From a virus, in the IMG/VR virus record IMGVR_UViG_3300046665_000482, positions 1 through 61,377 of that record: DNA of 61,377 bases; one strand, 5' to 3'. Of this stretch, positions 3,880 through 60,259 are shown piece after piece. Within the stretch, counting starts at the first letter, position 1. Each line of letters begins with the position of its first letter. The position numbers were made by a program, and so were the translations under genes. Under the pieces are notes generated by a model. The model made no database searches, was not told the DNA's origin, and worked only from the letters and a program-made list of their open reading frames with translations.

Positions 3880-3954
3880 GTTCTCGTAGTTCAATGGATA
3901 GAATTATGGCCTCCGAAGCCGTCGATATGAGTTCGAATCTCATCGAGAACACCA
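3880..3954 (+). tRNA. tRNA-Arg(CCG), prophage attachment gene
   Basis: The cloverleaf is complete. The acceptor stem GTTCTCG pairs with CGAGAAC, the anticodon stem ATGGC/GCCGT encloses loop CTCCGAA (anticodon CCG), and the T-arm ATGAG/CTCAT encloses TTCGAAT. Discriminator A3951 is followed by an encoded CCA. A TATCTTTG -7 box sits at 3863-3870, about 10 nt upstream. The 3' 15 nt are the prophage core repeat, so the bases after 3952, including the end of the CCA, are phage-supplied. Confidence 0.95.
3938..3952 (+). repeat. attL core (15-bp direct repeat)
   Basis: TCTCATCGAGAACAC lies in the T-stem and acceptor 3' strand of tRNA-Arg and is repeated exactly at 60245-60259. Flanking bases differ on both sides, so the core is exactly 15 bp. 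Confidence 0.9.
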
Positions 3955-4099: not shown

Positions 4100-5320
4100 A
4101 TGAGTATTAATTTAAAGATCGCTTTATTCAAAGGTAAGACATATGCAGATGGGTCACATCCTATTCAGTTGCAATTTTACTTAAACGGAAAGCAAAAACG
4201 AAAAGGAATCTATTCTTGCCACGCTGATGACTGGGACAAAAAAGCATGCCGGGTAAAGCCCAAGGTTACTAACTCAGCATTTATCAATAATTTAATTTCT
4301 GAAAAATATGCTGAGTTCGAGCGAGAGTTAATTAAAATATTAAATGGTGAAATAGCCGCTACTGATTTCTTCGAAGAAAAAAAAGCGCTGACCTTGGGTC
4401 GAATCTTTGAACTGGAACTTAAAAGATTTCAAGACGAAGTAAAACCTGCCCCTTACGCCATATTTGACGGGTATAGAAAACAAATATCATCCTTTACTGA
4501 TATTGATAACCTTAATATAAAAGATATCGATCTTAAATGGTTCCAATCATACGCTGCTTACTTAAAAACGGCAGAAAAGATCGACGGCAAGACTGTAAAA
4601 AAAGTAAATATTGGTTCTACTTCTCAAAAGAAAATTAAGTCAATCAGGAGGCTAATTGAAAAATATTCTGGCCAGATGCCAAGTGACGATGTGAAAAATT
4701 TCAGGGTTCCCACTAGAAAGCCAGCTAAACAGAAACTGACGCTTGATGAACTTGCAAAAATTGAAAATTTAGAACTAAGTCCCGATACCACTATTGATGT
4801 AGTTCGAGACATATTTTTAATGCAAGTATATCTTAGAGGTGCAAGGGTTGGTTCATTATTACAGGCTTACTCCAATCAGTTTGATGATGGGCGCTATGTC
4901 GCCTCTAATAGTGACGGTAAAAACAACGTTGGTTCAAGGCTAATACCAAAAGCTCAGATTATTGTAGATAAGTACTATGGACGACATGAACGACTGTTCC
5001 CATTGTATAAATTTGTACCGGATCCCAAGCTGAGCGAATATGAAAATAAACGCAAAGGACTAAAGAAGAAAGAATCGTGCACGACAGTTGTCAATAAATA
5101 TCTTAAACAAATAGCTGAAAAAGCGGAAATTCAAAAACCAATATCGTCCCATATTGCACGCCATACATTCGCCCGTATGGCTATAGATAAAATAAATAAT
5201 CCAATGGTAACCATGGAGCTATTAGGGCACGCATCTCTAGCAGTCCATCAGGCATACCTTAACGACATCAGAAAGGATGACTTATTGGATGCCGCAGCCG
5301 ATGATATATTTGATATTTAA
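4100..5320 (+). CDS. int: Phage tyrosine integrase
   Basis: The 406-aa protein has an N-terminal arm-DNA-binding domain (about 1-90), a SAM-like core-binding domain (about 95-195) and a C-terminal catalytic domain. Catalytic residues are R249 (LRGARVGSLL), H351 and R354 (HIARHTFA), H377 (LGHASL) and Y386 (HQAYL). It recombines attP with the tRNA-Arg attB and, with an excisionase, reverses the reaction. It starts 15 bp after the arm repeat, next to attL, as in most tRNA-integrating phages. Confidence 0.96.
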   Translation: MSINLKIALFKGKTYADGSHPIQLQFYLNGKQKRKGIYSCHADDWDKKACRVKPKVTNSAFINNLISEKYAEFERELIKILNGEIAATDFFEEKKALTLGRIFELELKRFQDEVKPAPYAIFDGYRKQISSFTDIDNLNIKDIDLKWFQSYAAYLKTAEKIDGKTVKKVNIGSTSQKKIKSIRRLIEKYSGQMPSDDVKNFRVPTRKPAKQKLTLDELAKIENLELSPDTTIDVVRDIFLMQVYLRGARVGSLLQAYSNQFDDGRYVASNSDGKNNVGSRLIPKAQIIVDKYYGRHERLFPLYKFVPDPKLSEYENKRKGLKKKESCTTVVNKYLKQIAEKAEIQKPISSHIARHTFARMAIDKINNPMVTMELLGHASLAVHQAYLNDIRKDDLLDAAADDIFDI

Positions 5321-7938: not shown

Positions 7939-10900
7939 GCATCAGGGTCCCACAATATTCCGCTAACAAAATACATTGTTTTATTTACCCCCGCATCATT
8001 CTTATAATTTACAGGACCTGAGTACCCTTGCCTATATGTTAGACCTCCGTCATTGATATATAACCCATGTGATGCATCAATAAATGCTGCCTCACCCCTA
8101 ATGAAAGAGGTTTGCACATTGCCAGATGAGTCTCTAACCCTAATTCCATAAGGTGTTACAGTAGTCTGTGGCTGGCCCGACTGTCCTACTAACATACCCG
8201 GTACTGCCAGATCGCCTAAAGGCGTATCAACAATATCTATTCCTGTATCTACCTTTACCGCCTCATTCCCACTGCTATCATAAAAAGATATAGAGTTATC
8301 AGCTCCATCAATTTCAACTCGCTTACCGCTATCAGCAGTTTTTAAGTTACGAACATACAATTCTGCAACCTTTATGAGCGTGGTTAAAAGATAGCCTCCA
8401 CTAATTACCGTTGTGCCAAGCTTAGCTATCTCTACAGCATCTTCAAACGCCATATTGCCAAGTGATGCTGCTAAAGAATTATATTGAGAAATTGCCGTAT
8501 TTGCCTTTGTATCATCAGTATACTTTGAAGCTAATCCCCAATCACCTACAACATAAGCCCCTGATGCCCTTGCAATGTTACAACGCTTTAAATCACCTGC
8601 TGAACCACCGGCCCATAAGTCGCCAACATCATAAGGCGTGGTCGGGGTGGTGGTAAACACACGTCGTTTACCATCCGCCGTATCTTGTGCTGCAGCAGCA
8701 TTTGACAGCGCTAAAACAATATCAGTATCTGAAATTGGCAGCCAGCTATAAACTCCAGTACTTGTATTTTTTGAATACCTATAAGCGTATCCCTTCGAAG
8801 TCCAATAAAATAAATCCCCTAAATGGGCATCTCGAATGGCAGTTGTTGACCATGTATTAGCCGGGGCATTGGTTAATGTTGGTTGATAATCAAAAAACCA
8901 GCTTGTAATTTGACCGTCAATTTGATTTTGCAGACTGTCTTTTATGGCGTTTACAAAGGAAACTTGAGCATAAGTTGTTAAATCTGGTTTATCTGCAAGA
9001 TTAGCGTACCCGGATGATCCCGACTGGAATTGTATTTTACCACCTATTACCCCGGCATTTAAATCAAAATAGGTACCACCGTCAATACTTGATATTGTAC
9101 CCGTTGTTATCTGATCGCCCACTATCGTTGTTATTCCCTTAGTTGAGCGCATAATCCTGTAACCATCTGAATTGACTTCATACAGTATGCCAAGGTTGAA
9201 CGCATAGTATCCTGCAATGTCATTGATTCCGATTGGCGTTTCAGATATTTCCCAAGTACCAATTAATGCGGATTTAGAGCACTTTGCGTAAACGTAATAG
9301 AACTTAGTCGAAACAAGGCCTGTCCATGAGTGAGATGCCATAACCCACGTATAGCCTAGTCCTTCTATCTTATAAACAAAATGAATTAACTGCCCAGATG
9401 ATATTGAAAAAGAGTTAGGGTTGCCAGCCACATTTGGCGTTATAGTAACCTTGTTTAAATTGAAGTTTTGCGAATCGAAACCAAAGGCGGCCATGCCGGC
9501 TACTAAACTCGTTGGGCCAGTGAATAGCGTTCCATCTGGATTAAATATTCTGGTTTGTAGCGTACGCAAGTTTAAACTGTTTAACCTCGCCCTTTCCGCA
9601 TTAGTCCGATTTACATACTTCACCTCATGCTTAGTATCGATAGTGTCGCTAATGATCCGCTCACTAAGAGTATATGGGATGAAGTTAGCTATCTGAACTG
9701 TTATTTTTGTTTCAGGCGTGATTAACTCAGGAAAATTAACCGGGTAATTGACCGCCGTAACCCTAATAAGAGAGTTAATTCCAAGCGCGGTGTCAACAAC
9801 TGTTACCTTATCACCCGGCTGTAGCATAATGCCATTGTCCCTCGCATATAGGGGATCCATTTCAAGGTTATACAGCACACGCGGTATGCAGTTTTCATCA
9901 AGCCATTCTTGCGTTTTAGTCCTGAGTAGATTTTCAGCAGCAGTTACCGAAGCGGGTGGCATGAACATATCAAATAGTGTATAGGTGTCCCCTACCTGTG
10001 CCTGGAATACTGTATTTGGTAATGTGTTGTTGCTGGCGTCAACAAATACCTTAATCTTAATAGTCTTGGTAGCATTGTCGTAATCCAGTATATCGAACTC
10101 TTGCCCTTGAACTTCGCCAGTTAAGAATGAGATTTTAGGAGTTTCAGAGGAGAAATTATCTTTCAGGTTGAACGACAAAGTAGAGTCGGTAATGCTAAAA
10201 TACGTACTGTCTGGACTAGTACCGACCGCCGCCGTAACAACTCCTTCAACCTTTGGATAAATATCTTCATTGATGTAGTCATCTTCTTTGATTCGGTATA
10301 AACTAACATTCTTATCCAGGTGCTCTTCGGCAAACATTAATTGCGTTGCACCTCCCCTATAATTTTCAGGTAGGTTACGCGTGCTGCCGTATCCAAAGCC
10401 GCGTGTTACAATATTCTTATCATCCTGATATTGGTAGCCCAAGGAGTAAAGGCCATTACCCATCCCCCGTTTAAATACGTGAGTAGTTACATTTCCAACT
10501 TGCTTAACAAATTTTAATGCCTTGCCGTTCAAATCCCACTCAACCCCAAATGCTTCAGCAATTGTATCTAAAGCTGTCCGGCAAGTATGTCCATCGAAAC
10601 TTATGGATTTCTCTGTAACAGCATCACATGCCCCAACTGACCAGCCTGAATCTATCTCATTAATGTTGTCAACGACAAGTTGTGCGAAGTCGGTTAGGTC
10701 GCCGTAGTACTGAAACGTCTTGTTTTTCAGATGCTTAAGCTTTTTATCATATAATCGGTACTGATCTGACTCAAATGTGATCGTATACTTATATTCAAAG
10801 GTATTGCCGGCCATTACACTGGGAACGGTGTTAACTGTGTACTGTTGGCCTTTATACACTATATAGGCTCCTATAGGGCAGTCTAATGCACCAGGCAATT

Positions 10901-11012
10901 CTACGTCAGCTTTGATTTCCTTTGCACCCATGAGTTGCCAGTCGATTGACAGGGTATCGTATATGGGGAGGTTAGATATAGCGGAGCCGTTGAAGTAGAT
11001 GGGTAGGTACAT
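7935..11012 (-). CDS. Baseplate hub / tail-tip protein (Tal-like) with fiber C-terminus
   Basis: The 1025-aa product begins with a region typical of phage tail hub proteins (about 1-430), with strands such as GAYIVYKGQQYTVNTVPS and the linker DGHTCRTALDTIAEAFGVEW. Its middle and C-terminal regions are repetitive and beta-rich, with short SSGN-type motifs near the end. It follows the tail-spike gene by 8 bp. It is predicted to close the tail tube and hold the receptor-binding parts. Whether it carries a peptidase cannot be told. Confidence 0.78.
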   Translation of the reverse strand: MYLPIYFNGSAISNLPIYDTLSIDWQLMGAKEIKADVELPGALDCPIGAYIVYKGQQYTVNTVPSVMAGNTFEYKYTITFESDQYRLYDKKLKHLKNKTFQYYGDLTDFAQLVVDNINEIDSGWSVGACDAVTEKSISFDGHTCRTALDTIAEAFGVEWDLNGKALKFVKQVGNVTTHVFKRGMGNGLYSLGYQYQDDKNIVTRGFGYGSTRNLPENYRGGATQLMFAEEHLDKNVSLYRIKEDDYINEDIYPKVEGVVTAAVGTSPDSTYFSITDSTLSFNLKDNFSSETPKISFLTGEVQGQEFDILDYDNATKTIKIKVFVDASNNTLPNTVFQAQVGDTYTLFDMFMPPASVTAAENLLRTKTQEWLDENCIPRVLYNLEMDPLYARDNGIMLQPGDKVTVVDTALGINSLIRVTAVNYPVNFPELITPETKITVQIANFIPYTLSERIISDTIDTKHEVKYVNRTNAERARLNSLNLRTLQTRIFNPDGTLFTGPTSLVAGMAAFGFDSQNFNLNKVTITPNVAGNPNSFSISSGQLIHFVYKIEGLGYTWVMASHSWTGLVSTKFYYVYAKCSKSALIGTWEISETPIGINDIAGYYAFNLGILYEVNSDGYRIMRSTKGITTIVGDQITTGTISSIDGGTYFDLNAGVIGGKIQFQSGSSGYANLADKPDLTTYAQVSFVNAIKDSLQNQIDGQITSWFFDYQPTLTNAPANTWSTTAIRDAHLGDLFYWTSKGYAYRYSKNTSTGVYSWLPISDTDIVLALSNAAAAQDTADGKRRVFTTTPTTPYDVGDLWAGGSAGDLKRCNIARASGAYVVGDWGLASKYTDDTKANTAISQYNSLAASLGNMAFEDAVEIAKLGTTVISGGYLLTTLIKVAELYVRNLKTADSGKRVEIDGADNSISFYDSSGNEAVKVDTGIDIVDTPLGDLAVPGMLVGQSGQPQTTVTPYGIRVRDSSGNVQTSFIRGEAAFIDASHGLYINDGGLTYRQGYSGPVNYKNDAGVNKTMYFVSGILWDPDA

Positions 11013-11020
11013 AGTTATTT

Positions 11021-14000
11021 TTAAATGATTATATAATTACCTGATCCGTCAACTGCTTGAACACGTATTGACTGTTTAGAATCGGCAGGTAATACATAAG
11101 TTGATGCGCCGTCTATGCTGGTTGCTGACACAGTAATAACCCCACTCCCACTATTTTTAATCGCAAACACGGTTTTAGCTGGTGCATTAGGCAATGTCTG
11201 TGTGAATGTTCCACTTGTTATGTTTATAGTATAATCCGTTGTTGGCAAGACAGTAGTGGCAGCTGTGATAGCCCTATATCCTAATAGTAACCCATTCCCT
11301 TTATATGATAATTCGTTTATACTATTAAATGTGCCGTCGCTGTTATGTCTGATAATGAACAGTCCTAGTCCCACATCCGACTTAGGATAGCATATAGTTA
11401 GTGCCCTTGCTGCATCTCCATTGCCATTAAATGTAAAAACTTGCCCAAGACTAAACGGGAAATTTAGTCCTCCTGATACAGAATTGGCACGGACACTGCC
11501 ACCTACAGTAGTGCTGGTTATAGGATTATTCATATTGTCGATAGCTGCCACAAATCCATTTTTATCAACTTTTGAATCTAATTGGCTTTTGATTACCACA
11601 TGGTTTGCGGTCGTCGCTGTTGCTGCTGTGACATTTCCTGAAAAATCAGCGGATGTTCCACTTAACAGGCCGGTTAATGCGCCACCTGATTTATTAAGTT
11701 TTAATGCATCTCCGGCATCTACATAATCTTGCACGGCTTTAGCGCTGGGATAAAGAGTTGTACTATTAGATACTGTGTCGGTTTTATTAGATGAATTTTC
11801 CACAACATACCCAAAATTACCCTCTAAAATACCCCAATTGGCTGCCGTTTGCCCTGGTGTATTTGTTAATGCTCGTAGCCAATCGCCAACATTTACTGCA
11901 ATGCCAGCTAATGTTCCGGCTACACTTATTGACCAAACATTGCCCTTTAAAATTGCTCCCGATGTCCCTGAACCGCCTGTTGACGGATAGGCGTTAGTTG
12001 AAGCGTCATAGGTGCCACGGTCGTTAAGCAATCCAACAACAAGGTTATCGGCATAGTTTTTTGCCGCCTGGACTGTCGGATATAAATTATTATTTACAAC
12101 CGTGAAATCTGTCGCCTTATTTAACAAGTTTTCTTTTAAATCGTCTGATGTATCTATATATGATTTGGTCATCACAGGTACCCACGTACCAGGTGTTCCC
12201 GTTGCAGTACAAACCCAATAGGCTATTCCTGTGCTTGGATTTGTATTGTAAACAATCGTACCGGTAAACCCTTTATAGCCACTTACCGGAATGGTTGCTC
12301 TATAGCTATAATCTGAAACATTTTCGATAACAATGTTGACCCCAGTAGTATTCAGGTTAATGGTATGAGTATTTCCAAACGCTAACCCTGCGCATTTAAG
12401 TCCTCTTATAGTAAAGTAATTGGCCGTAGTGGCAGCGCCTACCTCATTAGTTAATGTAACTGCTGTTCCTATTCTTGTCCCTGAAGTTTCGTATAGCTCA
12501 CAATTTTCGATCGTATAATGATTTCGACTAGTTTCTATTTTAATTGCCGCTCTACCATTTGCCCCCGCAATCGTACCATTATCAAACATTTTAGAGTTTG
12601 ATATTTTTACTCTTGTTGGCGATTGAGTGCCATCTGATGAATTAATAGATTTAAGATACATAGCTCCAAGGGGAAATCCGGTTATCGTATTATTATTGTA
12701 GCTTATATCTTCCCACTTCCCTGCCGTTGTAATGCCGTAAGCGACATTTGTTGTACTACCACTTGTTGCAGCCCCCCCATTTAAATAATTATTTGAAACT
12801 GATACACCGCTAATAACTTGGTTGTCATAGCGTGTATCAAGATAGATACCTGCTATGCTGCGGTAGTATGCGCTTGTATTTACATATTTGTTGATGCAGA
12901 TATTACCATCTATTACAAGCCCCTTTACAGATAATGCTGCTGTTACATCAAAACCTAATGGCCGCCAATAGATAGCAGCGGAGGCCGTGTTAGAAAAAGT
13001 ATTATCTATGTATCCGCCTGTTTGGTTTGTGCCCCAATTAATAATTTGATTATTTGACACTAAAGCGTTATTGCCAAAACCTGAAATAGCACTATAATAT
13101 GTGTTGGTAATCCTGTTGTTGCTTATGGTAACATCATTTGAGTTGTCAAGGTTCGTAGTTGTATTCCCGTACAGCTGAATGCCATATAAATTATTATCCA
13201 ACGTATTTCCATCACAGATTAAGTCACCTGTACCGCCATCGTTCAAACCCTCTATGAGTATGCCGGCGATGCAATTTATAGCGCTATTGCCCTGCACGAT
13301 GAAATTTTTCGTTGTTCTTTGGGTCGGCGCTATTGCTCCCGAAACAAAGTCAAACCCTATATTAGCGGCATCGTCAATAACCTGATTAGTCATTGGGGAA
13401 GATGGAAATGTCCCCACCTTACCTACAGCGGTGTTGTTTTTGACGTAATAAGCCCCAATAGGCCCGGTATAGGCATTTAGCTGTGGTGGAGTTGTGGTTG
13501 GATTCCCTGGTGTAGTACCCCTAATTGTAAAACAATTTCCGTTATACATAGCACCCTGTAACGTTGTTGAGTATCTGACATTCCGAACACCGTAAACGCC
13601 ATTATCTTCAAAAGCTAAATCATAACACCCCTGCACTAAAAATCCCCCCAAGGTACTATCGAATACGTTTACATTATTTACTCTTATATGGTCAACCGCT
13701 TGTATTGACACACATGCTTGTGAAACACCGTAATATTTTGACTCACCAGCTGGATCGGCAGGTATCCACTTATTTAAGTAAACGGGTGTTATGTTACTTT
13801 GGTCAATTGAAAAATCTTTAAGTATAATATTACTAATACGTTTATCTGCGCTATAATAATCGGTATGATAATTTACTACTAAAACACTCAAACCCACATC
13901 TTCGGTTTGCGTAGGGTTATAAGCTATAATTTTACTTGCATTACCATCACCCCTAAGTGTAATATTATTACCTTTTATAAATATAAATTGTGTTGTACGA

Positions 14001-25887: not shown

Positions 25888-26982
25888 ATGAAGCTAAACC
25901 AACTCACCTTCACAAGATTTCTTGCCGCACTTTCTATCGTTATATATCATTCAGATTGTAAGATATATCCTTTTAATCAGGGAGTATTAAAAATGATATT
26001 CAGTCATGCTAACGTAGGGGTATCTTATTTCTTTATCCTATCTGGATTTGTAATGATAATAGCATATGGCAAACAAAAAACAGGTACAATTAACGCCAAG
26101 GCTTATTATATAAACAGAATTGCGAGAATATATCCACTGTATATATTTGCGCTTTTTTTGACAATTATAACTCAGTTAAGCAAACATGACGTCCATTTCA
26201 AGGATGTGTTATTGCAAATATTTGCACTTCAAAGTTGGTATCTTCCATTGGTTTTGAAATTGAATTCACCGGGCTGGTCGTTATCTGTAGAAGCATTTTT
26301 CTATTTAGCTTTTCCTATATTATTCAATTACGTATACAGCAAGTACTCAACTAAAATTGTGTTTGCATCAGTCATTTCATTTTGGATAATTAGCCAGGTA
26401 ACGGTTAATTATTTGTTTTTATCTCCATTTTATAAAGGATTCCCTTCAGACAGTCATAACTTTTTATTCTATTGGCCGATACTGCACCTTAATCAATTTA
26501 TGATGGGTAACATACTGGGATATATTTATTTAAGATATGCCGGGAAGAACAGAAACTTTGATTTGCCAGTTATCGCCGTTGTTTCTGCCTTATTAATCCT
26601 CCTATCCTTTAAACCGACTTTTAATTTTCATGATGGATTGATGGCAGTTATTTTTGCTCCGCTAATATTACTTATCTCTTTAAACAGTGGCATAATTACT
26701 AAGGCATTCTCGAACAAATACTTAGTAATATTAGGCGAGGCCAGTTACGGAATGTACATATTGCAATATCCAATAAGAAACTTTTGCCTTTCAGCATTTA
26801 AGAGGCTGCATATTAGCAATGAAACTATCTTCTTTTATGGATACCTGGTTATTTTGATTGGCGTTTCAATAGTCTGTTATTATATGATTGAAATCCCTGC
26901 AAAAGACTGGATAAAGAGCTTGCAAACTAGGCCGGCCAAGAAAGTGGCAGCGCCACTGGTAGAAAATGCAGTTAATTTTTAG
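25888..26982 (+). CDS. Acyltransferase-3 family membrane protein (OafA-like)
   Basis: The 364-aa product has about ten hydrophobic segments. It has an N-terminal RFLAALSIVIYHS with H21, which matches the catalytic His of acyltransferase-3, and a downstream NRIARIYPLY motif. The family O-acetylates lipopolysaccharide or other surface sugars. It is transcribed against the late genes; a TATCTTTA box lies at 25871-25878, 10 nt before the ATG. It is probably a lysogenic-conversion gene that alters the phage receptor. The 260 bp before it show no other gene. Confidence 0.85.
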   Translation: MKLNQLTFTRFLAALSIVIYHSDCKIYPFNQGVLKMIFSHANVGVSYFFILSGFVMIIAYGKQKTGTINAKAYYINRIARIYPLYIFALFLTIITQLSKHDVHFKDVLLQIFALQSWYLPLVLKLNSPGWSLSVEAFFYLAFPILFNYVYSKYSTKIVFASVISFWIISQVTVNYLFLSPFYKGFPSDSHNFLFYWPILHLNQFMMGNILGYIYLRYAGKNRNFDLPVIAVVSALLILLSFKPTFNFHDGLMAVIFAPLILLISLNSGIITKAFSNKYLVILGEASYGMYILQYPIRNFCLSAFKRLHISNETIFFYGYLVILIGVSIVCYYMIEIPAKDWIKSLQTRPAKKVAAPLVENAVNF

Positions 26983-27986: not shown

Positions 27987-28190
27987 TTATACTTTGGGTG
28001 GGGTTGGAAGTATTTTAATATTCGCTGCAATTTCTTCAAAGTCTTTACGTATACGCATACCCTTTTCTTCGCTTGTTTCTTCCCTGTACTTATGTATATT
28101 TTCGGGGTCTGCTATACTTTTAATAGCAAATTCAAACGGGCTTATTGTAGTCTTAGCCTCTGCCGACTTTATTTCTTCTGACTGGTTCAT
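27987..28190 (-). CDS. Hypothetical protein, 67 aa
   Basis: The product is charged and helical with a central PFEFAIKSIADPENIHKY segment. Its start overlaps the stop of the previous gene by 4 bp (ATGA type), which supports translation. No family recognised. Confidence 0.5.
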   Translation of the reverse strand: MNQSEEIKSAEAKTTISPFEFAIKSIADPENIHKYREETSEEKGMRIRKDFEEIAANIKILPTPPKV

Positions 28191-28585
28191 GGGTTAGTTT
28201 TAAACTTAAATTCTCTTTTCAAGGTTTTGTAGATTATTTTTATGGCTTCTGAATTAAAGCCCCAATAGTCATTTATAAGCATTCTAATAAGACCATTGAC
28301 CCTTAAGAAATAAATAGAGCAAATTGCTTTATCGTTTGAACCATTTTCTTTTTTAATGTAGTGAGTTTGATTTGATAGACTAGATACTTTAACCCAATTA
28401 TAATGGAGATTTTTATTACATAAAACCATTTCTTTTGATAAAATATCAAAGAGTTTCTTCGCATCTTCTTTATCGAAGAAGTAAAAAGAGTCATCTTCTT
28501 TCAATACAATTGAAAAATATTTTTTGTCATCATCTCCTAAAATCTGAATCTCAAAAACGCTATTAATTTGAATAATTCGCTTCAT
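28187..28585 (-). CDS. Hypothetical protein, 132 aa, AT-rich
   Basis: The product is rich in Lys, Ile and Phe with alternating beta pattern (FEIQILGDDDKKYFSIVL). Base composition is clearly more AT-rich than the structural genes nearby. It overlaps its downstream neighbour by 4 bp and is 3 bp after the preceding gene. No family recognised. Confidence 0.55.
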   Translation of the reverse strand: MKRIIQINSVFEIQILGDDDKKYFSIVLKEDDSFYFFDKEDAKKLFDILSKEMVLCNKNLHYNWVKVSSLSNQTHYIKKENGSNDKAICSIYFLRVNGLIRMLINDYWGFNSEAIKIIYKTLKREFKFKTNP

Positions 28586-37622: not shown

Positions 37623-38078
37623 ATGAAAAAGTTTGAGATAAATCAGGTAGATGGAAAAACTGTCATCACAAATCAGTCAAATGGCTTCAAAATAATTGTC
37701 GAAAAAGGCAGGACTTTGAAAGGTGAAGAATATGGGCTATTGGTTGAAGTTATCCAGTATAAGGATAATAAAACATTTGAACCAGTAGCTAATTATGTTT
37801 TTGAAGGTGTGGGCGTATCTGAAGACTATATTCCTACTGATGACTACCGAGAAAACTTCTTTGCTGCAATAAACCTATTCTTGGAATCGGTGGCGAAAAC
37901 CAGTAATTACCTAATGACGATACCTGAGTATTCAACGTTTAACAATGAAGGCTATGGGTTTTTATCGGAATCACACCTCGGTCCGGAACTAACAGAAGAA
38001 AACTGCACTCCTGAGTTATGGGAGGAGTTGACAGGTGATGAGACTAAGGATATTCCAGACGAAACGCTGCCATTCTAA
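37623..38078 (+). CDS. Unknown cassette protein 1, 151 aa, acidic
   Basis: The product starts MKKFEINQVDGKTVITNQ and is acidic, with an alpha/beta N half and a C-terminal acidic tail (TEENCTPELWEELTGDETKD). No family recognised. The next gene starts within 2 bp of the stop and its first residues (MKKFKVI) resemble these, hinting at tandem duplication of a lead segment. Confidence 0.6.
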   Translation: MKKFEINQVDGKTVITNQSNGFKIIVEKGRTLKGEEYGLLVEVIQYKDNKTFEPVANYVFEGVGVSEDYIPTDDYRENFFAAINLFLESVAKTSNYLMTIPEYSTFNNEGYGFLSESHLGPELTEENCTPELWEELTGDETKDIPDETLPF

Positions 38079-38079
38079 A

Positions 38080-38460
38080 ATGAAAAAGTTTAAAGTAATT
38101 AGCGAGCCAGGGGGCGTATACGTAACAGGAGATGATAATTTACGAATACTGAGATATGTACATCAGGACGTTGACAAGACAACCAATGGGTTTATATATG
38201 TGTTAATAAACGATCCGTTTGATGGTTTGCAAAACTCATCGTTTATGGTAGACCTGAATGAACTGGCCGCTAACATGTGGGATTTGGAAACACTAAAGGG
38301 TGCGATCTTTTTCTATTACACGCAATGGCCGGATGAGGTAATAGTGGAAATAGAAATATCAGAGACACTACAGGCATATTATAAGCATCCGGAATCTATT
38401 TATAGCAATACTACTGAACTAAACAGGTTACAGGATTCGGGGCCTAATCTATTTTCATAG
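38080..38460 (+). CDS. Unknown cassette protein 2, 126 aa
   Basis: The start at 38080 gives MKKFKVISEPGGVYVTGDDN. The product is acidic and mixed alpha/beta, ending with LQAYYKHPESIY and DSGPNLFS. It follows cassette protein 1 by 1 bp. An in-frame extension to 38035 reads across the previous gene and is unlikely. Confidence 0.6.
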   Translation: MKKFKVISEPGGVYVTGDDNLRILRYVHQDVDKTTNGFIYVLINDPFDGLQNSSFMVDLNELAANMWDLETLKGAIFFYYTQWPDEVIVEIEISETLQAYYKHPESIYSNTTELNRLQDSGPNLFS

Positions 38461-38467
38461 GATAGTC

Positions 38468-38713
38468 ATGCAAGAAATCATTTTAGATATCCCCTGGGAT
38501 GATAGGCGTGCAGTATTAAAGATATCAAATCCAGGAGGAGCAGGTAATCAAATTTGGCATGTGTATCTTGATAACTACTATAATGGCCAAGTAATATTAA
38601 TAAATGGAGAAATCGTGTGCTTCCTGCATGAAACGTCCGAATTATATTACGATGATCAGCAGATTATTAAAGAATTGATAAATGAACATTTCGGGCCACT
38701 ACAAGGGGGCTAA
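38468..38713 (+). CDS. Unknown cassette protein 3, 81 aa
   Basis: The product begins MQEIILDIPWDDRRAVLKI and has beta hairpins (WHVYLDNYYNGQVILING). It is 7 bp after cassette protein 2, and its 3' end overlaps the leftward SRAP gene by 15 bp. No family recognised. Confidence 0.55.
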   Translation: MQEIILDIPWDDRRAVLKISNPGGAGNQIWHVYLDNYYNGQVILINGEIVCFLHETSELYYDDQQIIKELINEHFGPLQGG

Positions 38714-39430
38714 CTCAGGATATTCACAAACCTCCAAAATCTGAGCGTTGTTCGTATCAATCTTTGTTTTATTTAAATCCTTGTTAACTGGATGCGCGGC
38801 AAGTACGCCATCTTCAATAGGCACCATTAAGTCTTTAATCTCTTCATCAAGCAAATCATTGGATAGCCAATTACGCTCTTTATCAGGCGGTAATATAACA
38901 GGCGTGCGCAACTTAATGTTATGTATCTTCCGTATTAAATCATTAGGATCGTCATTTGGCTCGGTAGTCACTATTGAAAATGTAGGATGCCAGATTTCTT
39001 TCTCGTCCTTCCACGCGTTGTATAGACCTGCAAAGGCAAACGGCTGCTTATCTTTCCTGTAAATAAAATACGGATACTTATTACCGTTCACATCCATGCT
39101 TTCGTAAAAACCATCGGCCAACACCAGACAACGCCGTTTTCTAATTGATGTTTTCCATGACACCGCAGTGAATGCATTATCATCCCGCGCATTCAGGTTA
39201 CCTATTCGAAGCTTTTTTGCATGCGCTGCATCTTTGGCAAACGAAGGAATAAGCCCCCACTCAAACGCCTGTATCACGTCCGGGTCTTTCTGAGTGATAA
39301 CCGGCAATGAAGGGTGTGAAAAACCATTCGCATGATAGTGCAGCTTGTGTTCATATTCAGGTTTGAATTTAGACCCAAACCTTTTCTCAAATTCTTCTGG
39401 TGCCGATTTTACCGCTACTTTGTAACACAT
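38699..39430 (-). CDS. SOS response-associated peptidase (SRAP/YedK-like)
   Basis: The 243-aa product starts MCYKV, so Cys2 becomes the N-terminal nucleophile. NARDDNA (80-86) and GFYE (107-110) are the catalytic-site motifs, with a late HPVNK. SRAP proteins crosslink to abasic sites in single-stranded DNA and shield them from cleavage. In a phage this may protect replicating DNA. It precedes an unknown leftward gene by 2 bp. Confidence 0.93.
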   Translation of the reverse strand: MCYKVAVKSAPEEFEKRFGSKFKPEYEHKLHYHANGFSHPSLPVITQKDPDVIQAFEWGLIPSFAKDAAHAKKLRIGNLNARDDNAFTAVSWKTSIRKRRCLVLADGFYESMDVNGNKYPYFIYRKDKQPFAFAGLYNAWKDEKEIWHPTFSIVTTEPNDDPNDLIRKIHNIKLRTPVILPPDKERNWLSNDLLDEEIKDLMVPIEDGVLAAHPVNKDLNKTKIDTNNAQILEVCEYPELAPL

Positions 39431-45474: not shown

Positions 45475-45849
45475 CTACGCCGCAATCTTGCAAGGATTTG
45501 GCAAATTAACCGCCTCCCAAAATTCATTTTCAGAATAAATCAACCTGTATTCATGCCCCAAACTTTCGCAAATCTGCTGCCATTCCTTTTGTTTTTCCGA
45601 TTGTTTTCCGCCTGGTATTTTAAATTCAAGCCATAAAATCCGGCCACCTTCAAGCAGGTAAAACATGTCAGAAACACCAGAAACAACACCGATAGCTTTG
45701 TTAAAAGCACCCTTCAATGCGTTCTGAGAATTGTTGTTTATACAGCACAAACGCTTCCTTAACGCCGGGTAATAGTTCCAGTGGTTAGTAAAGCAGTTCG
45801 ATTGAAATTTAAGTTCAGAATCCAATGTATGTGCGTATTCCGGTTGCAC
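45475..45849 (-). CDS. VRR-NUC nuclease (phage Holliday-junction resolvase-like)
   Basis: The likely start is GTG 45849 (VQPEYAHTLDSELKFQ), as the longer frame runs into the dispersed repeat. Core motifs are GVVSGVSDMFYLL and LWLEFKIPGG with E-x-K, then KQSEKQKEWQQI. VRR-NUC enzymes cut branched DNA, useful in resolving replication intermediates before packaging. It is the last early gene before the repeat field. Confidence 0.85.
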   Translation of the reverse strand: MQPEYAHTLDSELKFQSNCFTNHWNYYPALRKRLCCINNNSQNALKGAFNKAIGVVSGVSDMFYLLEGGRILWLEFKIPGGKQSEKQKEWQQICESLGHEYRLIYSENEFWEAVNLPNPCKIAA

Positions 45850-45869
45850 GATATAAAGATAATAAAAAG

Positions 45870-45899
45870 TTATCAAGTTAATCAAAATATTGATAAGTA
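45870..45899. repeat. Dispersed palindrome, copy B
   Basis: A 30-nt sequence, TTATCAAGTTAATCAAAATA then TTGATAAGTA, identical to copy C at 51043. The arms TTATCAA / TTGATAA make an inverted repeat. It overlaps the 5' end of the nuclease gene. Confidence 0.75.
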
Positions 45900-46106
45900 A
45901 TTTGGTATATTTGGTTAGAAGAGCAATAATTATTGAATCACAGCCATATATTTGTTAATAGAAATACGGGCATTATGTTCATTCTTGAAATTAGAGTAAT
46001 TAAAGCTACTTAGATTTAGTATTGAACATTCATTTTTTGGATGTATTAAGGGTTAATGGATAAACTACGTTATATTTAGCAGCCAATTAATAAACCCTAA
46101 ATCAAT

Positions 46107-46958
46107 ATGAATTATAGATCTTCTCGTTACTCAATATTCCGATATCAAATATTGCCAAACCTATCCGCGCAAACGAGCTTATTCGAAGTTCATATGTCAA
46201 CAAAAGAGTTAGTAAGTAGAAAAAACGAATTTTTCAAGGATGTTATAACCGATGAAAAAAACATCTTTAGAGGCAAAGGGTCCAAGATAATTGGCAGGGT
46301 AGAGTATGAGAAAGATGACGATATTTTATTAAAAATAGGAGTAGAAAAAAATAAGGAGATTAATAAATCAGATTTTAAAAAGGAAACAATTAAAGATTAT
46401 CCGAATATTAATGTTTATATTAATAACAGAAATGACAAGCAATTTTTGATTATTCAAAATAACCTTGATGCATTTTCTGATAGCATTACTGCTAAAAATA
46501 TACTAAAAAATACTTGGTCAAAAAAACTTGAAAAGTACCAGCTTTCGTTATACATTGAGCAAACATTTGATAAAAATCAGTTTTGGGATACGATTAAGCA
46601 GTATGAGGGCAGGGGTATAACATCCCTAAAGTTTGAGTTCATTAAGCCTAATATCTCAAATATATCGGGAGCGATAAAAAGCAGTCTTACAGCAATAAGC
46701 AATGAGCTAAATGGCCATTCAATAGATTTGAATATAGCCGCGCCACGTGACAGCACTTTGGAGAATATTAAGGAAGGCGATCCAATAGTGGAATCACTGC
46801 TGGATTATAATAAAGAAGGCGGAGGAAAGTCACCTTTAATAAAGGTTAAAGGTATCCGAAGCAATATTAAAACCATCAACTCAGAACGAACAATTAACAT
46901 TCAAGAATTTAATGGAACAACTGAAGAATTAATTAAAATTTTAAACGGCTATCTATAA
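46107..46958 (+). CDS. Two-gene cassette, protein 1 (soluble, unknown), 283 aa
   Basis: The N-terminal block (MNYRSSRYSIFRYQILPN, then SAQTSLF) looks like a conserved lead motif. A mixed alpha/beta body and KYQLSLYIEQTF follow, ending with KILNGYL. Composition is very AT- and Lys/Asn-rich compared with neighbours, a sign of recent acquisition. The stop codon abuts the ATG of the membrane gene, so the two are coupled. TATATTTG boxes lie at 45906 and 45947. No family recognised. Confidence 0.7.
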   Translation: MNYRSSRYSIFRYQILPNLSAQTSLFEVHMSTKELVSRKNEFFKDVITDEKNIFRGKGSKIIGRVEYEKDDDILLKIGVEKNKEINKSDFKKETIKDYPNINVYINNRNDKQFLIIQNNLDAFSDSITAKNILKNTWSKKLEKYQLSLYIEQTFDKNQFWDTIKQYEGRGITSLKFEFIKPNISNISGAIKSSLTAISNELNGHSIDLNIAAPRDSTLENIKEGDPIVESLLDYNKEGGGKSPLIKVKGIRSNIKTINSERTINIQEFNGTTEELIKILNGYL

Positions 46959-47414
46959 ATGATATATATACTTAAACGGATTGGATTCTTAATTATGGTT
47001 TCTATAACAATAGAATCAATATGTGTATTCATTAAAAGCGAATTCTTAGTAGGGTTTTTAACAAATAAAATTGTAGAAATTCAAATTACCCTAATTGCAA
47101 TTAACACCGCTACAAGCAGTTTCATAGTATCTAAGCTAGAGGAACTATCGAAAACATATAATAAAAAGTTTACAAATATTTACAAAGAGATTAAAGCATC
47201 TATGCATCAACAAATAATATTGATAGTATTTTCGATTCTGCTGTTAACGATAAGAGACAGCGGAACCCTTTCCCCTGTCTTTCATCAATTTAAAGATTTA
47301 AAATATATATTTGGTATATGTATGATATTTTCTTTTTCATGCTCCATTGATATCCTTAGAGATACGGGCACTGCGATGTTTAATGTTTTGATAGATAATA
47401 ATAAAACCGACTAA
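46959..47414 (+). CDS. Two-gene cassette, protein 2 (multi-TM), 151 aa
   Basis: Three to four hydrophobic segments are visible: about 5-23, about 27-55, about 85-100 and about 116-133. A cytosolic-looking basic loop (EELSKTYNKKFTNIYKEIK) lies between. A membrane protein coupled to a soluble partner, expressed against the lytic genes, fits an exclusion or abortive-infection pair. The role is inference. The next gene on the other strand starts 4 bp later. Confidence 0.7.
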   Translation: MIYILKRIGFLIMVSITIESICVFIKSEFLVGFLTNKIVEIQITLIAINTATSSFIVSKLEELSKTYNKKFTNIYKEIKASMHQQIILIVFSILLLTIRDSGTLSPVFHQFKDLKYIFGICMIFSFSCSIDILRDTGTAMFNVLIDNNKTD

Positions 47415-47418
47415 CCCC

Positions 47419-48282
47419 CTACCTCAACAAAAAATCAGCTAAGTCCAACCCTTTACCCCTATCCTCATCAGTAGCAATTCGCTCTATGTGATCGGATATA
47501 TTAAAGCCAAACTCTTTTGCCTTCAGTGTCCAGTCACTATAAGCGCCCAGGTCTGGGAATAGGGTAACAGACCTGTTAGCCAATGGACCTACTTTTTCGG
47601 CCCGTAGTTCAACTTTACCACCGCAAGCTAGCCAAGTATACTTGTCAATGAATAAACTGCATATCATGGCCGTTTTTTCGCTTTCAACTATAGCTACCGG
47701 TTTGGTGGGCTGGCCGGCCAGTAGGTGCTCACCGAATAAACATTGCTTCAAATTATAATCAGGGAATACCGGCGCGTCATTACGCACTCGCTTATGGTAC
47801 CAGGTTGCGGAATGTTCTTTATCCCGATGCCCATCACTGCAATATTTAATGATCTTACCGGACCTAATCCTATTATGCAAATCATACTGCCAAAATATAG
47901 TCCAGTCTTTAGTATAGGGGCTGCTGTCATCAACGCCGAAACGGTAAGTTTCGATAAGCTCTTGCACTTTCTGATCCCCTACAAGCGATATTAGCCATTT
48001 AGTGAAGTTGTTGTCTTCATATCCTTTTAACGTTGATATCACGTGGTCAATGGGGATGTATGACGGATCCTTTTCAACTGGTCGTTGATATGGTACGAAA
48101 ATGATTGCATCATCTTCCGGCTTTGCAAAATATCCGCAATTGACCTCCCTATCACACCGACCAAATTTAGGATCGGCGAAGTTGCCTTCTATATCGCGGA
48201 AGCAAACTAGTGTTTTCTTATTGCAGCCTGGGCATATAAACTTTTTGCTCGATCTATCCAGATTGTATTTGAAGGCTTTCAT
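47419..48282 (-). CDS. DUF6371-like primase/TOPRIM protein
   Basis: The 287-aa product begins with a zinc-binding region (CPGC near residue 18 and a later CDREVNC). Then come a central DUF6371-type domain and a TOPRIM-like core with AIVESEKTAMICSLF and SVTLFPDLGAYSDW. It is similar to primase-like proteins of Bacteroidota phages and mobile elements. It shares one base with the ATPase gene stop, so they are co-translated. It probably primes or assists replication. Confidence 0.8.
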   Translation of the reverse strand: MKAFKYNLDRSSKKFICPGCNKKTLVCFRDIEGNFADPKFGRCDREVNCGYFAKPEDDAIIFVPYQRPVEKDPSYIPIDHVISTLKGYEDNNFTKWLISLVGDQKVQELIETYRFGVDDSSPYTKDWTIFWQYDLHNRIRSGKIIKYCSDGHRDKEHSATWYHKRVRNDAPVFPDYNLKQCLFGEHLLAGQPTKPVAIVESEKTAMICSLFIDKYTWLACGGKVELRAEKVGPLANRSVTLFPDLGAYSDWTLKAKEFGFNISDHIERIATDEDRGKGLDLADFLLR

Positions 48283-58054: not shown

Positions 58055-58855
58055 ATGACTGATAATCAAATAGAAAAAATCAAACGAGTTACCGAAGTAA
58101 GAAAGCTTTTGGGCTTGAGGCAGACGGAAATGTCAAAAATATTAGGTATAAACAGGGTAAATTTGTCTGCAATTGAAAACTTTAGAGAAAACAGACAGTT
58201 ACCAAATGGTACATCTTATATTCTTGAAAAGGAATTGAATGTTAATCCAATTTGGCTAGACACAGGAGAAGGCGACATTTTCTTGACTAAGCAAACAACA
58301 TACCCCCGCCTTGAAGCCAAGCCAATCAGTCTGGCATCAGACCCTGCCGATTACAACAATGACGGATCACGGTTTGAGGAATTACCAGATGGTACAATAA
58401 GAATGCGTGTGCCGGTTATCCCTCATAAAGCTTTTGCCGGTTATTTAAGAGGGTTTCAAGACCCTGAATTTTATGAAGACTTACCTTATATATCGGTTGA
58501 CGTAACTAAGCAGCATAGAGGGCACTACCTGGCATTTGAAGTTAAAGGTGATAGCATGACAACACTTGAGCCTGAGAAGTTTAGACAAAGCATTTTTGAT
58601 GGGGTTACTGTTGTTGGTCGTGAATTGGCAAAGCACCACTGGCGATATAAGCTGCACACTAATAATTATGACAACTGGGTAATTGTTCATAAAACGGAAG
58701 GTATTTTATTAAAGCAGATACTAGAACATGACATCGAACAATGCACTATCACTATTCACTCGCTTAATCCTGATAAGAAAGCATACCCGGATCAAACATT
58801 ACAGCTTGATGATGTAGAGCAGATATTTAACGTGGTACAAAAAATAGATAAATGA
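58055..58855 (+). CDS. CI/LexA-like phage repressor
   Basis: The 266-aa product has an N-terminal XRE HTH (about 9-60, RKLLGLRQTEMSKILGINR). A linker includes KAFAGYLRG, where A128-G129 would be a LexA-type cleavage site. A C-terminal S24 peptidase-like domain has S167 (GDSM) and K220 (ILLKQI). It is predicted to repress PL in the lysogen and to self-cleave on RecA activation. It overlaps the secreted-protein gene by 4 bp. Confidence 0.92.
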   Translation: MTDNQIEKIKRVTEVRKLLGLRQTEMSKILGINRVNLSAIENFRENRQLPNGTSYILEKELNVNPIWLDTGEGDIFLTKQTTYPRLEAKPISLASDPADYNNDGSRFEELPDGTIRMRVPVIPHKAFAGYLRGFQDPEFYEDLPYISVDVTKQHRGHYLAFEVKGDSMTTLEPEKFRQSIFDGVTVVGRELAKHHWRYKLHTNNYDNWVIVHKTEGILLKQILEHDIEQCTITIHSLNPDKKAYPDQTLQLDDVEQIFNVVQKIDK

Positions 58856-60244: not shown

Positions 60245-60259
60245 TCTCATCGAGAACAC
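60245..60259 (+). repeat. attR core (15-bp direct repeat)
   Basis: Exact copy of TCTCATCGAGAACAC at 3938-3952. What follows (ACATTT...) is host sequence and shows that the native tRNA gene probably had no encoded CCA. Confidence 0.9.

Follow-up and report, generated by a model that had tools for sequence, protein, structure and literature searches.

A low-GC gene pair in a prophage-like genome

The DNA analysed here, called the window throughout, is the virus record IMGVR_UViG_3300046665_000482 at its full length of 61,377 nt, and it carries what looks like an intact prophage. Two genes, named A and B, lie between a VRR-NUC-like gene and a primase-like gene, the names of these two neighbours being taken from reading and from alignment with relatives and not from HMM matches. 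The features needed below are the following:

3880-3954, tRNA-Arg; its 3' end contains the putative attL
3938..3952, putative attL, 15 bp, TCTCATCGAGAACAC, in the tRNA-Arg 3' end
4100..5320 (+), tyrosine-recombinase-like integrase of the prophage, read from the sequence; beside tRNA-Arg
45475..45885 (-), VRR-NUC-like gene, one flank of the A-B site (ORF; relatives)
45886..46106 (+), AT-rich region upstream of A where the promoter is expected (sequence read)
46107..46958 (+), gene A, soluble RexA-like protein and putative infection sensor, 283 aa (ORF, homologues, AF2 model, Foldseek)
46959..47414 (+), gene B, predicted four-helix membrane protein and putative RexB-like effector, 151 aa (ORF, hydropathy, co-occurrence, AF2 model)
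47419..48282 (-), primase/TOPRIM-like gene, tail to tail with B (ORF; relatives)
58055..58855 (+), HTH/S24 (CI-LexA type) repressor, Pfam E 2e-4 to 1e-3, below the cut-offs
60245..60259, putative attR, the identical 15 bp at the opposite prophage end

The TAA stop codon of A (46956-46958) directly abuts the ATG of B (46959), and the stop codon of B (47414) is only 4 nt away from the tail of the primase-like gene. Between approximately 42 and 58 kb the remaining likely genes all point leftward, while A and B are read rightward against the lytic direction. The GC contents of A and B are 0.316 and 0.281, respectively, compared with 0.395 for the window, which places B second lowest and A third lowest among the 62 non-overlapping ORFs of at least 100 aa. 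The lowest of these ORFs is a leftward gene of unknown function at 28187-28585 (-), with a GC content of 0.268. An earlier note, made from the sequence alone, had pointed to the abutting rightward pair between the two flanking genes and to its deviating base composition, and both observations hold. In the upstream region the only candidate promoter elements are matches to a -7-like TAnnTTTG motif, an exact one at 45947-45954 and one with a single mismatch at 46071-46078, and no promoter was established there.

The nearest relatives of the primase-like gene come from Mucilaginibacter and Pedobacter prophages, and the host of the prophage, a soil-type bacterium, is therefore probably a member of the Sphingobacteriaceae. 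Neither A nor B gave a credible match in Pfam, PADLOC or NCBIfam, toxin and antitoxin families included, in agreement with the statement of the earlier note that both families were unfamiliar. Against PHROGs, B produced only phrog_21152 (E 0.009) and the cation efflux family phrog_7308 (E 0.09), both of which were discarded as too weak.

A and B occupy a cargo hotspot

The VRR-NUC-like neighbour is also present in L001-L004, L006-L008, L087 and L089, and the content of the gap between this gene and the primase-like gene could be compared. The gap is nearly empty in the related prophages L001, L087 and L089, contains a two-gene pair in L002 (1737-2647), a PemK-like gene (Pfam E 0.009, below the cut-off) with a partner in L003 and L007 (7685-8509 in L007), a GNAT-like gene (Pfam E 1e-4, below the cut-off) with a short partner in L008 (7731-8480), a single 204-aa gene in L006, and a mixed set of other genes in L004. 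All gap genes of L002, L006, L007 and L008 are on the strand opposite to the phage block. Judged by reading and by the weak Pfam matches, the gap pairs of L002, L007 and L008, which are Mucilaginibacter-type prophages, resemble toxin-antitoxin pairs. Since the gap is empty or differently filled in related prophages, it is a cargo hotspot in which A and B are replaceable cargo and not part of the core phage machinery, and it is a place to seek further cargo.

A and B form a conserved unit

Searches by tblastn with the A and B of the window against phage and plasmid collections gave nothing useful, nor did single-sequence scans of contigs with either protein, and the family was opened only by whole-genome searches of the host family followed by alignments. 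When A was compared with 401 genomes of the host family, four matches (L140-L143) were strong, and a profile search across 396 genomes of the phylum contributed L145 in addition to the distant L147 and L148. A homologue of B, with 27-33% identity to the B of the window, follows directly after A in L140, L141, L142 and L145. Using L145 as a tblastn query led to the E. coli record L157, where A (9773-10669) and B (10644-11108) are located between an integrase gene and icd. At an identity of at least 99% this pair is present in 32 of 5,426 complete E. coli genomes, in the e14-like prophage context seen in L159, and 9 further genomes of the same set carry a diverged copy. The two proteins of the E. 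coli pair have the accessions WP_001177766 and WP_001180570. The two diverged copies that were inspected belong to lambdoid prophages, where they form reversed cargo flanked by hok and ead. A tailless Vibrio phage encodes an A that is 42% identical, together with its own B. Two scans of viral contigs supplied 25 more loci, and wherever these include downstream sequence a small B containing hydrophobic segments comes next after A.

It is clear from these loci that A followed by B on the same strand is a conserved unit, found in the window and in more than 20 other loci, some of them near-identical. The order recurs in every full-length relative with downstream sequence, the exceptions to the pairing being L143, where A is truncated, and L146, a doubtful distant relative. 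The rows overstate the number of independent cases, because L142 and L175 are apparently one element and several of the E. coli entries hardly differ from each other. The two genes overlap by 1-41 nt, usually by 4-26 nt, or abut in the relatives, and most relatives encode an A of about 280-300 aa and a B of about 143-165 aa, the latter mostly with three to four hydrophobic segments by hydropathy. Invariant in the alignment of A are R12, F43, F90, P99, Q112, L141, F159, W160, P181, N182, N202, L218 and G238-G240. The doubtful L146 encodes (1069-2079) a 336-aa A-like protein overlapping a soluble 277-aa protein, has no membrane partner and was left out of the argument, and the matches in L144 and L138/L139 were judged to be due to chance.

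The carriers are prophages of Bacteroidota and Proteobacteria, the e14-like prophage of E. coli, the Vibrio phage, and defence islands. The co-occurring homologues of both proteins that the earlier note had suggested looking for were thus found in other prophages and in defence islands, and not just among structural or lytic genes. No report of the family was found in the literature, either by accession or under Rex in Bacteroidota.

Repressor-like and restriction-modification-like genes flank some of the relatives

Eight Proteobacteria-like loci (L177, L178 and L181-L186) have a repressor-like ORF with an HTH on the same strand upstream of A and B, and in L178 and L181 Pfam confirmed both S24 and HTH in the repressor. 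The pair of the window, at approximately 46 kb, shares its strand with the repressor at 58 kb, at a distance of 10.6 kb.

Other relatives are chromosomal. The neighbours in L150, L152, L155 and L156 were named from the sequence by eye and not by HMM. Read in this way, the L150 pair has as neighbours a Septu-like ATPase/HNH pair together with HsdS-HsdM-HsdR of a type I restriction-modification (R-M) system, the L155 pair lies inside a type III Mod-Res operon, and the L156 pair is next to an Mrr-like gene and a gene for an Eco57I-like enzyme. In L152 (9679-17858) A lacks its C-terminal part and has no B; its neighbours encode a PLD-SNF2 helicase of 1118 aa and a methyltransferase-like protein of 1353 aa, and this A is probably a decayed member of the family in a defence island. 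In L149 and L153 the pair is located between housekeeping genes. Taken together, the cargo next to intE in the e14-like prophage, the reversed cargo of lambdoid prophages, the Vibrio phage and the R-M islands are contexts that fit defence, and an anti-phage role of A and B is well supported by them.

A speculative extension, which we consider unlikely, is that the chromosomal pairs are a second layer built into R-M operons (of type III in L155, of type I together with the Septu-like pair in L150, Eco57I-like in L156) that would kill or arrest the cell once restriction has failed or been inhibited, with prophages carrying the sentinel alone and the family being a broad and uncatalogued group of Rex-like sentinels.

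Predicted structures and comparison with lambda Rex

The RexA/RexB "exclusion" system of phage lambda is 70 years old. Lambda RexA and RexB have 279 and 144 aa, the gene order is cI-rexA-rexB, and rexA and rexB are separated by a gap of 15 nt. The comparison of A and B with this system was prompted by a paper on RexAB of P. putida (PMC12894663) and had been set down as a hypothesis by the time folds were searched.

The AlphaFold model of A, built from 19 sequences, has a pLDDT of 80 and a pTM of 0.77. When it was compared with 350,542 PDB chains by Foldseek, lambda RexA (8TWQ) ranked first with a probability of 0.85 and an E value of 4.8e-3, which is above the Foldseek mark of 1e-3, and the alignment of 323 columns is nearly full length with a TM score of 0.30 and an rmsd of 13 Å. 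With this caveat on E value and TM score, A is predicted to have the RexA two-domain fold. A different angle between the domains would be expected, because the 8TWQ crystal is of the closed form. Lambda RexA was absent among the 50 BFVD matches listed for the same model. The model consists of an N-terminal beta-rich domain ending in a strand with the IEP motif (146-152), followed by a second domain with four strands and helices and by a final helix, and this order of elements agrees with the published description of RexA. In lambda RexA the sequence QIEP is found at about 134-137, just before the hinge at 140-142 (8TWQ; PMC11077077), and the IEP motif of A likewise stands just before the inter-domain hinge.

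The AF2 model of B (pLDDT 90) has four long helices (2-24, 29-67, 72-100 and 112-149), and B is accordingly modelled as a small four-TM inner-membrane protein, whereas a fold search with the model returned no informative match. These models and the recurrent pairing bear out the earlier description of a soluble protein with a multi-TM partner, a layout of the exclusion or abortive-infection type.

The sequences were also compared directly. A profile of A scored 17.5 with hhalign against four lambda-type RexA sequences, which is not significant, since 4 of 60 shuffles reached this score and a reversed control gave 17.8. For B against RexB the score of 16.0 is likewise not significant, being reached by 7 column shuffles and by 14 hydropathy-keeping shuffles, out of 200 of each kind; a resemblance that a first control of 60 shuffles had suggested was removed by this control of 400. 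Matches to Hjc resolvases in a sequence-only PDB profile search were weak (E 0.18-0.29), and this identity was rejected. As neither the A-RexA nor the B-RexB comparison is significant, we do not assign A to the lambda RexA family by sequence; the pair probably works like Rex, and A probably shares ancestry with it. Such similarity is not essential to a Rex-type system, as RexABpp of P. putida, discussed below, illustrates.

A Rex-type module as the likely function

Considering all of the above, we think it likely that A and B are a module for superinfection exclusion (abortive infection) of the Rex type, which a temperate phage of Sphingobacteriaceae carries as lysogenic cargo and in which A would sense the infection and trigger B. 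This reading is favoured by the gene order, the protein sizes, the link of relatives to a repressor-like gene and the fold predicted for A. These were obtained directly, as were the genes themselves, their strict pairing and order, their distribution over mobile elements and defence islands and the predicted topology of B. According to this reading A would be a RexA-like, two-domain and probably dimeric DNA-binding protein sensing the incoming phage, most likely through DNA or DNA-protein complexes of replication or recombination. Activated A would then switch on B, which may oligomerise in the inner membrane and either breach it or stop growth before the cycle of the invader is completed, and in this way the lysogen would be protected.

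The pair shares with lambda rexA-rexB the adjacent and co-oriented genes, with a soluble protein of about 280 aa followed by a multi-TM protein of about 145-150 aa, a predicted fold of A for which RexA is the best match in the PDB, and the position of many relatives downstream of a repressor-like gene. It differs in having no significant sequence similarity, in the separate cargo site at a distance from the repressor, and in the abutting stop and start codons where lambda has its 15-nt gap. A further parallel is RexABpp (PP_5643/PP_5644) of P. putida prophage P1, where both genes are needed for phage protection and RexBpp is a growth-stopping effector triggered by RexApp; RexApp was recognised as RexA-like by remote methods only, and RexBpp has no detected RexB homology (PMC12894663). 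Likened by description, both systems are prophage-encoded and combine a soluble DNA-binding protein (putative in the case of A) and a four-TM protein, and RexABpp lies near a CI-like repressor, as do some relatives of A and B. The P. putida proteins are larger than A and B, with 37.5 kDa for RexApp-His and a minimum of 181 residues for RexBpp. The pairs CarolAnn gp44/gp43, Sbash gp30/gp31 and Butters gp30/gp31 of actinobacteriophages exclude other phages (PMC12894663, PMC11077077) and also join a RexA-like protein with a membrane partner, a likeness again of description and not of sequence, while the RexA-like proteins of CarolAnn and Sbash are longer (370-372 aa).

The roles in Butters are reversed, with a toxic RexA-like protein and a restraining RexB-like protein (discussion of PMC12894663), and a Rex-type pair can therefore behave like a toxin-antitoxin system. 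An addiction module in which B is a membrane toxin checked by A, mainly stabilising the prophage, would fit a small membrane protein and a soluble partner in one tight operon, as well as the TA-like pairs with PemK-like (L007) and GNAT-like (L008) genes at the same insertion site. Known type II antitoxins nevertheless do not share the gene order, the length of A (about 280 aa in two domains) or its RexA-like predicted fold, and with no match to a TA family we find this explanation improbable.

Very unlikely, in our judgement, is classical superinfection exclusion at the envelope, with B blocking DNA entry and A assisting. Prophage cargo encoding a membrane protein, carried by unrelated phages, is what one would expect of such a system, yet known Sie proteins usually act alone, the RexA-like fold predicted for the conserved partner A suggests intracellular sensing, and chromosomal copies lie among intracellular R-M genes.

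We attach similarly little probability to a defence pair of unrelated ancestry that is Rex-like in layout only and has another trigger or effector chemistry, such as a nucleotide- or protein-sensing A and a pore-forming B. The insignificant sequence link to lambda RexA/RexB and the modest Foldseek statistics point in this direction, as does a weak match of one E. coli B to the PADLOC profile of 2TM effectors (E 0.017), which recalls the small TM effectors of CBASS, although the cassette consists of A and B only, with no CD-NTase (cyclase) gene, and A has no cyclase match. Against it, RexA is the top PDB match of A, the domain plan and the position of the IEP motif at the hinge agree with RexA, and relatives keep the order repressor-RexA-RexB. 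Ordinary phage genes for lysis, structure or accessory replication functions, as might be supposed from the location inside a phage genome next to replication genes, are extremely improbable given the opposite strand, the low GC content, the empty site in L001, L087 and L089, and the copies outside phages in R-M islands.

Returning to the Rex-type module, the proposal of the earlier note that this might be a new anti-phage cassette stands with regard to the sequence family, which is missing from the libraries searched, but not with regard to the kind of system, which is known from lambda and P. putida RexA/RexB (PMC12894663). Only five RexAB-like systems have been described so far according to the P. 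putida authors (PMC12894663), and the A-B family would extend them to Bacteroidota, E. coli, Vibrio and chromosomal defence islands. Surveys based on Pfam or PADLOC would miss it, because no model there recognised the members tested. The copies that E. coli carries between intE and icd offer a second, independent system for the old question of what activates RexA.

Other genes of the window

A rightward gene for an acyltransferase-3-like protein of 364 aa (25888-26982 (+), GC 0.338) is surrounded by leftward structural genes and is possibly lysogenic-conversion cargo. Three small genes of unknown function at 37623-38713 (+) form a further rightward patch within the leftward block, and the gene at 38699-39430 (-) was read from the sequence as an SRAP/HMCES-like (SOS response-associated peptidase) phage gene.
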